NCBI RefSeq assembly: GCF_000155775.1
Contig: NZ_DS989812.1
Location: 117,727-181,726 of the forward strand
Direction of reading: 5' to 3'
Length of the DNA: 64,000 nucleotides
From: Glaciecola sp. HTCC2999
Lineage (GTDB): Bacteria > Pseudomonadota > Gammaproteobacteria > Enterobacterales > Alteromonadaceae
In this document: positions 21,241 to 49,346 of the stretch, piece by piece
Layout: every line of letters starts with the position of its first letter
Numbering within the stretch: the first letter of the stretch is position 1
Notes under the pieces: generated by a model
What the model was told of the DNA's origin: nothing
The model's input: only the letters and a program-made list of their open reading frames with translations
Database searches by the model: none
Translations under genes and position numbers: made by a program

Positions 21241-21306
21241 AATCCTAACGTATGATTAATTCGTTACTTTTTAACAATAATAAACTAACCAATATTGGAG
21301 ATCCTT

Positions 21307-44130: not shown

Positions 44131-45345
44131 ATGAGAAGAGCAGTCATCACCGGATTAGGCATTGTATCAAGCATCGGCAACAATAAAGCGGAAGTCACCG
44201 AATCATTACGCGCAGGGAAATCAGGTATTACTTATTCTGAACAATTTGCCGAAAAAGGCTTACGTAGCCATGTTTGGGGTAAAGTGGACATTGATTTAAG
44301 TGAACATATTGACCGAAAACAGCTTCGTTTTATGGGCGATGCTGCGTCTTATGCGTTTATTGCGATGCAACAAGCCGTTGCAGATTCTGGTTTAACTGAA
44401 GATCAAATATCTAACATTCGTACGGGTATTATTGCCGGTTCTGGTGGCGCATCATCTGAACACCAAGTCGATTCTGCTGATATTTTACGTAATAAAGGTG
44501 TTCGCCGTGTTGGACCTTACATGGTGACTCGTTGTATGGGGAGTACCGTATCTGCTTGCTTGGCGACGCCATTCAAAATTAAAGGGGTCAATTATTCGAT
44601 TTCCTCAGCATGTGCTACTTCTGCTCACTGTATTGGTAATGCACTTGAAATGATCCAATTAAATAAGCAAGACATCGTCTTTGCCGGTGGCGGTGAAGAA
44701 TTACACTGGGCCCTATCAGGTCAATTTGATGCCATGGGAGCCTTATCTTCACAATATAATGATACACCTGATAAAGCTTCGCGTACCTATGATGCTAATC
44801 GTGATGGTTTTGTGAGCTCTGGTGGCGGCGGTATGGTCGTGGTAGAAGAGCTAGAACACGCTTTAGCTCGTGGTGCACATATTTATGCTGAGATTGTCGG
44901 TTACGGTGCCACTTCTGATGGTTACGATATGGTTGCTCCATCGGGTGAAGGCGCGGTTCGTTGTATGCAAATGGCGATGCAAAACGTGGACACTGATATT
45001 GATTACTTAAATACGCACGGGACATCTACTCCAGTGGGAGACGTTCAAGAGCTGAAAGCGATTCAAGAAGTCTTTGGTGAGAAATCGCCAGCCATCAGTG
45101 CAACCAAAGCGATGACGGGACATGCTTTGGGAGCGGCGGGTGTTAACGAAGCGATCTACAGTATCCTGATGATGGAAAATGATTTTATTGCGCCATCGAT
45201 CAATGTTGAAACATTAGATGAAGCTGCTGCTGGGCTAGATATTGTGACAGAAACTCGTGAGCAAACGATTAATACAATCATGTCGAATAGCTTTGGCTTT
45301 GGTGGGACTAATGCAACGTTAGTTATGCGCCGTTATAACGATTAA
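44131..45345 (+). CDS. fabB: 3-oxoacyl-ACP synthase I
   Basis: Elongating condensing enzyme needed for unsaturated fatty acids. Catalytic Cys in [12 protein letters not shown], His in [11 protein letters not shown] and [10 protein letters not shown]. The start [18 protein letters not shown] and 404 aa match E. coli FabB. A FadR-like site lies 65 bp upstream. Confidence 0.97.
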
Positions 45346-45426: not shown

Positions 45427-46182
45427 ATGACTCAATCTGTTAAAGATATCGTATCTCCAGAAGAATGGGCGATTCGCGTCGACCTAGCGGCTTGTTATCG
45501 AATGGTCGCTCATTATGGTTGGGACGATCTTATCTTTACTCATATATCCGCTCGTGTGCCAGGTCCTGAAGCACATTTTTTAATTAATCCTTATGGTATG
45601 TTATTTGAAGAGGTCACCGCTTCTAGTTTGGTGAAAGTGGATCTAGACGGAAACAAAGTCTTAGATAGCGATTTTGATATCAACCCTGCTGGTTTTAATA
45701 TTCATTCTGCAGTGCACGCAGCGCGTGAAGATGCGCATTGTGTATTACATCTACATACCAACGAAGGTGTGGCGGTGTCCATTTTAGAAGACGGGCTAGA
45801 AGCATTTTCACAAGCCTCGTTATTCCCGTTAAGCGGCTTGTCTTACCATGATTATGAAGGGGTTTCCCTTGATCCAGATGAAAAACAACGTTTAGTAGCA
45901 GATTTAGGCGACAATAACTTTTTTGTATTACGTAATCACGGGTTATTAACTTGTGCGAGCACCATCCCTGATGCCTTTTTGTTTATGTATATTATGCAGC
46001 GAGCTGCTGAAACGCAATTGCTTGCGCAAGGGACTGGGAAACCACTGATTAAAGTGCCAGACGCTATTTTAGCCGGGATACAGTCTATGGCCAAAGAAGT
46101 CCTTAAATCCTCAGGTGGACAAATGGCATGGCCAGGTATTTTACGTAAACTTGACCGTGATTATCCGGGGTTTCGTTCCTAA
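45427..46182 (+). CDS. Class II aldolase/adducin family protein
   Basis: 251 aa, class II aldolase fold. The zinc site is the HLHTNEG motif with a later LRNHGLLTC, and THISARVPG matches the substrate phosphate loop region. Family members are sugar-phosphate aldolases or decarboxylases, but many like this one have no proven reaction. It overlaps the next hydrolase gene by 1 nt (TAATG), so the two are coupled. Confidence 0.88.
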   Translation: MTQSVKDIVSPEEWAIRVDLAACYRMVAHYGWDDLIFTHISARVPGPEAHFLINPYGMLFEEVTASSLVKVDLDGNKVLDSDFDINPAGFNIHSAVHAAREDAHCVLHLHTNEGVAVSILEDGLEAFSQASLFPLSGLSYHDYEGVSLDPDEKQRLVADLGDNNFFVLRNHGLLTCASTIPDAFLFMYIMQRAAETQLLAQGTGKPLIKVPDAILAGIQSMAKEVLKSSGGQMAWPGILRKLDRDYPGFRS

Positions 46183-47102
46183 TGAGTACATTCATACTGA
46201 GCGAGTATCAAACGCGTGCTCAGTATATTGAATACCAAGACTGGCATGTGGGCTGTTTTAGCCCTTTTGATTTGTATTCAACTGTGGATAATGTTGACGT
46301 GTTAGCACGGCCGGTGGTTGTGTTTTTGCACGGTTTTCCTAGTGCCAGTAGTGACTGGAAAGCCCAATGGCATACACTTAAGGACACGCATTTTTGTATT
46401 GGCTTGGATTTTTTAGGTTTTGGTATATCAGATAAACCTTATCCTCATCAATACTCTCTCCATGAACAAGCAGACATTGTTGAGTTGTTATTTGCTCGTT
46501 TAATCGAGCGGGGGATCACTAAAATTCATCTTGTGGCTCATGATTATGGCGTATCAGTGGCCCAAGAATTACTCGCTCGGCAACAACAGCAACGACTAGC
46601 ACTTAACATCAGTTCTGTTGTATTCATGAATGGGGGCCTGTTTGCGGCCTTGCACAAACCGATTTGGACTCAAAAATTATTAAAATCACCGATTGGCGGG
46701 CTGCTAAGTAAATTCATGTCTAAGCGGACATTAGCCAGTAGTTTCAACCAAATATTTGGTCCTAAAACACCGCCACAGCCTGAATTAATTGATGAGTTAT
46801 GGCAGTTATTGAATGTACATCAAGGACGACGAGTGATCCCTCAGTTGCTCAGTTATATTGATGAGCGTTATGCCAATGCTACGCGCTGGCAAGACGCGCT
46901 GACACAAGCGAAGATCCCTTTGACATTGATTAACGGCGTGCATGATCCCATCTCAGGTCAACATATGCTGAATGAGTTTGAACGGTTATTACCTCAAACA
47001 CATAATACGCCATTAAATGTTGGTCATTATCCTCAAATAGAAGCGCCAGAAGCAGTGACTCAAGCTTTACGCGACTTTTGGGCTAAGCTATCATCTGAGT
47101 AA
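46182..47102 (+). CDS. Alpha/beta hydrolase with Asp nucleophile
   Basis: 306 aa, alpha/beta fold. HGFPSASSDW is the oxyanion region. The nucleophile elbow reads VAHDYGVSVAQ, with Asp rather than Ser, as in haloalkane dehalogenases and epoxide hydrolases. A C-terminal NVGHYPQIEAPEAV carries the likely catalytic His. It is coupled to the class II aldolase gene. The real substrate is unknown; dehalogenation or epoxide opening is possible. Confidence 0.83.
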   Translation: MSTFILSEYQTRAQYIEYQDWHVGCFSPFDLYSTVDNVDVLARPVVVFLHGFPSASSDWKAQWHTLKDTHFCIGLDFLGFGISDKPYPHQYSLHEQADIVELLFARLIERGITKIHLVAHDYGVSVAQELLARQQQQRLALNISSVVFMNGGLFAALHKPIWTQKLLKSPIGGLLSKFMSKRTLASSFNQIFGPKTPPQPELIDELWQLLNVHQGRRVIPQLLSYIDERYANATRWQDALTQAKIPLTLINGVHDPISGQHMLNEFERLLPQTHNTPLNVGHYPQIEAPEAVTQALRDFWAKLSSE

Positions 47103-47126
47103 TGTTTTTTAGTCCACAGGTGTATT

Positions 47127-48305
47127 TTGAAAATTCTATATGATGACAACATGCCATTCGCCGAAGATGTGTTTCCTTCTCTTGGAGATGCAAGTGCGTT
47201 TAATCACCAGGCGTTAGCTGATATCGATTTGGCTTCGGTTGATGCCATGATGATCCGTTCTACCAGTAAAATTGATCAAGCTAGAGTGGGGCAATTATCA
47301 TCATGTCAGTTTCTTGCTACCGCGACTGCAGGCTATAATCATCTTGATTTAGCAGCATTATCGGCAGCTAAGATTGACACGTTTATTGCGGCAGGTTGCA
47401 ATGCGACGTCTGTTTCGGAATATGCACTCAGTGGGGTGTTATACGCCTTATTAGCACGTGGTGATATTCAAGCGTCAGATCCTGTGAGCATACTGCAAGG
47501 TTTTAGGGTAGGTGTCGTCGGACTAGGGCAAGTGGGTCGTCGTGTCATGGCTAAGTTTTCTGCATTATGAATGATCGTAGATGCCTATGATCCGCCTCGT
47601 GCGTTAGCTGAAAATAGGCCAGAGTGGAACGATCTTGCGGCTATTTTAAGTTGCGACATTATCTGTTTGCACGCTCCTTTAGTGAAAAACGGACCCTACC
47701 CATCATGGCATTTATTTGATGAACAGGTATTAGCTCAGCTTTCACCGCGTCAAATCTTACTCAATGCAGGCAGAGGGGAAGTGGTTGATAATCATGCTTT
47801 ACTTCGTCTTGCCCAACAGGGGCTAACACCGACGCTGATACTCGATGTGTGGGAAGATGAACCTGATATTTTAACAGAGCTGATTGAGTACTGTTTAATT
47901 GCCACGCCACATATTGCTGGACATAGTTTGGAAGGTAAAACTCGTGGGACATTCATGCTATATGATTGGTTAGCCACACAAACTCAACAAGCCATTGTGC
48001 ATCAAATGGCAGATTTTTTGCCCAATCATGATGTGTCGTTAATCTGCTCGGATGAGTCCTTAACCGTTGAATCGCTTAGTACATTGGTATGGACAATATA
48101 TGATATAGCATTTGATCATAGCGAATTTGTGTCTAACATGGCACAATCACCCTGTTTTGCACAATTACGAAAGCAATACCGTCAACCTCGACCCAATAGT
48201 GATATTGCGGTAAGACGAGAATTTGATACGGCGCATGTCACTTGTACTTTTGAGCAAACCACGCACACTTTGTCAGCGTTGGGTTTTAGTGCCTCAACGC
48301 TATAA
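47127..48305 (+). pseudogene. pdxB: Erythronate-4-phosphate dehydrogenase, interrupted by in-frame TGA
   Basis: Second enzyme of the DXP-dependent pyridoxal phosphate pathway. Codons 1-147 encode MKILYDDNMPFAEDVF to GLGQVGRRVMAKFSAL; then TGA at 47568-47570; the same frame continues to 48305 with no shift. Read through, it would have 392 residues (E. coli 378). The stop aligns with a conserved Gly (E. coli LEALG), so GGA to TGA by one base explains it. Downstream catalytic regions (NAGRGEVVDN, DVWEDEP, TPHIAGHSLEGKTRGT) are intact. ATG 47571 directly after the stop could allow restart. It may be a recent mutation, a strain variant or a sequencing error. Confidence 0.85.
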
Positions 48306-48329
48306 TCGGTTTAAGGATCCTTATTTACC

Positions 48330-49346
48330 ATGTCACAAGCATTTAATGTTGCCGTTTTAGGCGCAACTGGCCTCGTAGGCCAAACAATGATGGATTTACT
48401 TGCAGAGCGCAATTTTCCTATTAATCAATTATTTCCTCTTGCTTCAAGCCGTTCAGCGGGTGGTACGATTACATTTAAGGGTAAAGAAATTGAAGTGCTT
48501 GATGCCGATAAATTCGATTGGTCACAGGCTGAATTTGGTTTCTTCTCTGCTGGTGGCAGTGTTTCTGAAAAGTTTGCCCCCATCGCTGCTGAAGCAGGAT
48601 GTGTTGTCATTGATAATACCTCACATTACCGTTATGAGCCGGATATTCCTTTAGTCGTACCAGAAGTCAATAGTCACGCATTAGCGGATTTTAGAAATCG
48701 TAATATCATTGCCAACCCTAACTGCTCTACCATTCAAATGATGGTGGCTTTAAAGCCTATTCATGAAGCAGTCGGGATTGAACGTATTAACGTATGTACC
48801 TATCAATCAGTATCGGGTGCAGGTAAAGAAGCGATGGAAGAACTCGCTACGCAAACCGCTGATTTATTAAATGCTCGTGAAGTGAAAAACGATAACTTTT
48901 CTCGTCAAATTGCGTTTAATGTGATCCCACAGATTGATGTGTTCCTTGATAATGATTACACCAAAGAAGAAATGAAAATGGTGTGGGAGACACGTAAGAT
49001 TTTAGGTGATGATACTATTCTAGTGAATCCTACCGCAGTGCGTGTCCCAGTATTTTTTGGTCATGGTGAAGCGATTCACATTGAAACACGTTCTCCGATT
49101 GATGCCGCTGATGTTAAAGCGTTACTGGCTCAAGCTGAAGGCATTAAATTGTATGATGATCGTGAAGCATTTCCTACGCAAGTATGCAGTGCCAGTGGCA
49201 ATGATTTAACTCATGTTGGGCGTGTACGTAATGATATTTCGCATCCCAATGGTATTAATATGTGGGTTGTTTCTGACAACATCCGTAAAGGGGCGGCGAC
49301 GAACAGTGTTCAAATTGCAGAAACATTAATTCGCGATTATCTGTAG
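48330..49346 (+). CDS. asd: Aspartate-semialdehyde dehydrogenase
   Basis: NADPH-dependent enzyme for lysine, diaminopimelate, threonine and methionine synthesis. N-terminal VAVLGATGLVGQTMM, catalytic Cys in NPNCSTIQ, and the catalytic His region GHGEAIHIETR. Unlike E. coli Usg at this location, all active-site residues are kept, so it should be active. Length 338 aa. Confidence 0.95.
   Translation: MSQAFNVAVLGATGLVGQTMMDLLAERNFPINQLFPLASSRSAGGTITFKGKEIEVLDADKFDWSQAEFGFFSAGGSVSEKFAPIAAEAGCVVIDNTSHYRYEPDIPLVVPEVNSHALADFRNRNIIANPNCSTIQMMVALKPIHEAVGIERINVCTYQSVSGAGKEAMEELATQTADLLNAREVKNDNFSRQIAFNVIPQIDVFLDNDYTKEEMKMVWETRKILGDDTILVNPTAVRVPVFFGHGEAIHIETRSPIDAADVKALLAQAEGIKLYDDREAFPTQVCSASGNDLTHVGRVRNDISHPNGINMWVVSDNIRKGAATNSVQIAETLIRDYL

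Follow-up and report, generated by a model that had tools for sequence, protein, structure and literature searches.

A single in-frame TGA divides the only pdxB-type gene found in the Glaciecola sp. HTCC2999 assembly

The divided gene and its surroundings

The window (the whole stretch of DNA that was analysed, 64,000 nucleotides of the Glaciecola sp. HTCC2999 assembly, here G000) carries at positions 47127-48305 a PdxB-type gene (4-phosphoerythronate dehydrogenase). When this interval is translated, the TGA at 47568-47570 is the single internal stop, and the same frame is open on either side of it. The features of the locus are as follows, with the codons of the nearest relative found (G008) given for comparison.

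47127..47570, forward strand: 5' part of pdxB, 147 codons from TTG at 47127 to the premature TGA; the start codon is GTG in G008
47568..47570, forward strand: the in-frame TGA; GGA (Gly) at the same codon in G008
47571..48305, forward strand: 3' part of pdxB, 244 codons from ATG at 47571; begins with an inherited Met codon
48330..49346, forward strand: asd, the gene directly downstream and outside the split gene, intact and 98% identical to its G008 counterpart

The gene order matches that of G008, with fabB upstream of pdxB at 44131 and asd downstream at 48330. Between fabB and pdxB (window 45427-47102) lie a class II aldolase-family gene and an alpha/beta hydrolase-like gene, in an order that is also kept in G008.

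Both halves matched the same two PdxB profile models over consecutive ranges (NF001309: positions 1-136 for the N half and 143-365 for the C half; NF011966: positions 1-138 and 146-372, respectively), so they represent one gene and not two chance open reading frames. What is left of the NAD-binding domain lies in the C part, together with DUF3410 at the C terminus. In G008 the orthologue is uninterrupted, equal in length and 85% identical at the protein level; it aligns end to end over 1179 bases, with the sole window stop at aligned residue 148 of 392. The translation, the consecutive model ranges and the intact full-length G008 orthologue together confirm the claim of the sequence-only reading that pdxB is split by one TGA.

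Assignment to PdxB was made from the best family match, DUF3410 and pathway context. NF001309 E-values were 1.5e-24 for the N half, 8.1e-58 for the C half and 9.9e-90 for the intact G008 orthologue, with scores (86.7, 196.2 and 301.2 bits, respectively) below the curated cut-off of 434 bits. Because the intact G008 orthologue itself falls below this cut-off, the PdxB form of the genus is divergent, and we use the label "PdxB-type". The best non-PdxB family scored 99.6 bits against the intact G008 protein versus 301 bits for NF001309; the DUF3410 (PF11890) cut-off of 31.4 bits was passed by the window C part (47.1) and by G008 (43.6), and the best PDB matches were the PdxB structures 5dt9, 3oet and 2o4c. 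The gene therefore shares with known PdxB (NF001309, NF011966; 5dt9, 3oet, 2o4c) a full-length best family match, the 2-hydroxyacid dehydrogenase domains followed by DUF3410, and the presence of further DXP-dependent pathway genes in the same genome, and differs in the premature stop of the window copy and the divergence of the genus form. The genus PdxB (L062:1030-2205 (-), window 47127-48305) also has several additional residues ahead of the GxGxxG segment when compared with aligned relatives from outside the genus.

The stop site among relatives and constraint on the frame

The stop site was compared in an alignment of 31 rows, consisting of the window and 30 relatives, of which L032 and L007 are one duplicated locus (L007 lies within L032), leaving 29 distinct relatives. 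A stop at this site was present in the window alone (0 of 30 aligned relatives, 29 distinct). The residue is Gly in 26 of the 30 (25 of the 29 distinct), and the others have Gln (2), Asp (1) or Asn (1); the "conserved glycine" proposed earlier is thus common but not invariant. In 5dt9 and 3oet the aligned residue is likewise Gly, placed immediately after the GxGxxG segment, which we take to be the motif of the NAD-binding helix. The proposal that GGA became TGA in one step fits G008, which has GGA and an equal length, the window copy showing the one stop of the comparison.

In a wider survey of the family, 389 of 395 genomes (365 of 369 good ones) had a PdxB match at E 1e-20, and among the best matches listed the stop was seen in the window only; weaker matches were left out of this survey, which therefore gives no rate of interruption. 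A TAA counted within the G028 match appears to sit at the C-terminal end of that gene.

Substitution rates between the window and G008 were calculated by the NG86 method, giving pN 0.080 and pS 0.662 for the N part (dN/dS ~0.05) and pN 0.111 and pS 0.664 for the C part (dN/dS ~0.07); dS, at about 1.6, approaches saturation and is an imprecise estimate. Five neighbouring genes had pN of 0.012 to 0.236 and pS of 0.507 to 0.643, such that the pN of pdxB lies inside their range and its pS slightly above it. In the C part, lineage-specific amino-acid changes (window/G008) numbered 12/13 with outgroup G1, 10/13 with G3, 12/14 with G5 and 11/13 with G6. The N-part counts with the same outgroups were 4/3, 5/2, 4/5 and 4/3; here the excess of window changes is slight, occurs with three of the four outgroups and comes from counts too few to weigh. 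Treating the counts as binomial, for the C part with every outgroup in turn and for the two parts combined with G1, gives a rough bound: if pdxB has been unconstrained, this would have been so for at most about 5-8% of the window's branch, which leaves no room for a long decay.

With no clear extra change, no indels and no further stops, an old pseudogene was ruled out. The remaining frame is intact and constrained, with one stop and a length equal to that of G008, which supports the earlier suggestion that decay is very recent or absent. Apart from its stop, pdxB looks like an ordinary working gene, judged from sequence.

Vitamin B6 synthesis in the genome

Possible substitutes for pdxB were sought in G000, a 2.56-Mb assembly of 11 contigs that is 82% complete, so that absences from it are soft. 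The full-length G008 PdxB used as a query gave only one match at E 1e-20, that is, no second pdxB in this 82%-complete assembly, and the sequence-only reading's idea that a paralogue covers the gene found no second copy to draw on. With the 244-aa half as a query, one other match was obtained in G000, a weak one (E 1.7e-4, 32%, 421-aa frame) which from its length is probably SerA.

The other genes of the pathway, epd, serC, pdxA, pdxJ and pdxH, each have an over-cut-off match in G000 with no stops inside. Neither pdxA nor pdxJ turned up in G008, perhaps simply because they are missing from an assembly that is 83% complete. The DXP-independent B6 pathway was set aside, as PdxS (TIGR00343) was found in none of the four genomes searched (G000, G008, G001 and G004). 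Likewise, a PdxK/PdxY-type kinase (TIGR00687, E 0.001) was found in none of four genomes (G000 and three genus relatives); in control genomes the same model had a match in 12 of 14 and reached its cut-off in 2, and either the kinase is missing throughout the genus or the model is too limited to find it. The genus may thus lack the common B6 salvage kinase (0 of 4 members, two of them 99% complete). Of the suggestion that salvage covers the loss, the presence of pdxH stands, but the PdxK/PdxY-type kinase was not found and salvage looks weak.

With no PdxS and no PdxK/PdxY-type kinase found, a true loss of pdxB should be costly, and the genome appears to depend on this gene. A published survey (PMC9997740) states that alternative B6 kinases and PdxB replacements are still to be found and that verified prototrophs without recognised PdxB or PdxR exist. 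According to another study (PMC12393044), E. coli without pdxB grows extremely slowly in minimal medium at first and then regains growth through promiscuous enzymes. Loss of pdxB would accordingly be expected to be possible, yet likely to hurt.

Explanations for the stop

Our leading explanation, held tentatively, is that in the sequenced cell or population the only pdxB copy found carries a nonsense mutation of very recent origin. A G-to-T change in the GGA codon of the glycine after the NAD-binding helix would have produced the TGA. Translation would then stop at 147 residues, leaving out most of the NAD-binding domain as well as the C-terminal domain, and a cell bearing the allele should therefore make little or no PdxB. 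Such a cell would need external B6, or would survive via leaky UGA decoding or a weak bypass. In this account the reality of the base, GGA as the ancestral codon, the recency of the change and its effect on the cell are all inferred. The stop is one substitution away from the sense codon of G008 and the rest of the frame is intact. Point-nonsense pseudogenes and nonsense alleles are ordinary in bacterial genomes; they share with this case the single substitution that places a stop in an otherwise intact gene, and this case differs in that no backup was found and there is no sign of further decay. The allele was not reported in the literature searched, and a plasmid search with the region (near mode) matched nothing.

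Almost as likely is that the stop is absent from the organism, through a consensus base called wrongly or a minority variant taken into the assembly. With one genome per species to compare, a consensus error and a real allele would look alike, and an isolated base error would yield just such a single substitution. The functional and constrained appearance of the rest of pdxB favours this account, as does the finding of a single pdxB with neither PdxS nor a PdxK/PdxY-type kinase; as the genome seems to need pdxB, a fixed null allele would be costly, which makes an error, or some residual function, more likely. The state of neighbouring genes bears on the question in both directions. Within the 43 kb shared with G008 (downstream of window position 21294), 49 G008 open reading frames were matched and 8 that overlapped higher-scoring matches were set aside, leaving 41 colinear genes, among which pdxB alone has an internal stop. 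Each of the 40 others is in one piece against G008, 39 over at least 95% of the length and the last one truncated where the window ends; three showed a stop very early in the alignment (residues 2, 4 and 13), ahead of the point at which the window ORF itself starts. That pdxB stands alone in this way speaks for an error, but the 40 genes free of internal stops also indicate that the sequence is generally clean, and the TGA base itself carries no direct sign of error. Across 224 kb of contig C6, comprising the window and eight 20-kb stretches, a scan for adjacent open frames of 50 codons or more that share a reading frame gave 13 pairs. Inspected by eye for where the frames end, the pdxB pair was the only one to resemble a single broken gene. 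Widespread stops in the assembly were therefore set aside (one broken-gene pair in 224 kb, one interrupted gene of 41).

A real but leaky stop, at which near-cognate decoding of UGA would supply enough full-length PdxB, is unlikely. It would draw on a small requirement for B6 and on a site that tolerates some residues other than Gly. The B6 need of cells is small, the frame is still constrained, and Gln, Asp or Asn occupies the site in 4 of 29 distinct relatives, but none of the tests for dedicated decoding was positive. SelA was found in 0 of 4 genomes tested, including the 82%-complete G000. A tRNA search of G000 returned 38 matches, 37 of which were assigned an anticodon by ARAGORN, in no case UCA; at 82% completeness a suppressor elsewhere is possible. 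The 38th match, without an ARAGORN call, is degenerate (35 bits; L136:54-133 (-), G000:C8:509193-509272), with an anticodon read by eye as UGA (Ser). Rfam matched nothing across 46900-48500 at E up to 1. Compared with shuffled sequences, folding was modestly stable after the stop (z -2.2, 6 of 200 shuffles as good) and showed no such stability before it (z +1.6); the post-stop fold is given little weight, as two stretches were folded and no relative has the stop. For selenocysteine or another programmed recoding of UGA, neither the Sec machinery nor conservation of the stop (0 of 30) was found.

Still less likely, and indeed very improbable, is a split enzyme, in which ribosomes would reinitiate at the ATG next to the stop and the two separate products would reassemble. 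The TGA is directly followed by an ATG and conserved segments are kept in both halves. However, the ATG of TGAATG is an inherited Met codon (in LGM), carried by 6 of the 10 genus members (the window among them), with Cys in the remaining four, and so is no signature of evolved reinitiation. By eye, no ribosome-binding-like site has been gained before it relative to G008, alignments with 5dt9 and 3oet place the cut inside the NAD-binding fold, just past the GxGxxG helix, and no aligned relative shares the stop. Of the two routes offered by the sequence-only reading, neither reassembled halves nor dedicated read-through of UGA gained positive evidence. That the stop is real and fixed, with B6 still made through UGA read-through or joined PdxB halves, we regard as distinctly improbable; this reading needs fixation and was therefore placed below leaky stop and split enzyme taken together. 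If true, it would represent a natural split or leaky form of a needed biosynthetic enzyme.

A point-nonsense change of this kind is an ordinary finding, and its one useful point is the apparent dependence of the genome on pdxB. If the stop is an error, the genome should not be labelled a B6 auxotroph. If it is real, as in the nonsense allele that we tentatively prefer, it would catch the loss or bypass of B6 synthesis at its very first step, in a lineage with small genomes in which the common salvage kinase was not found.
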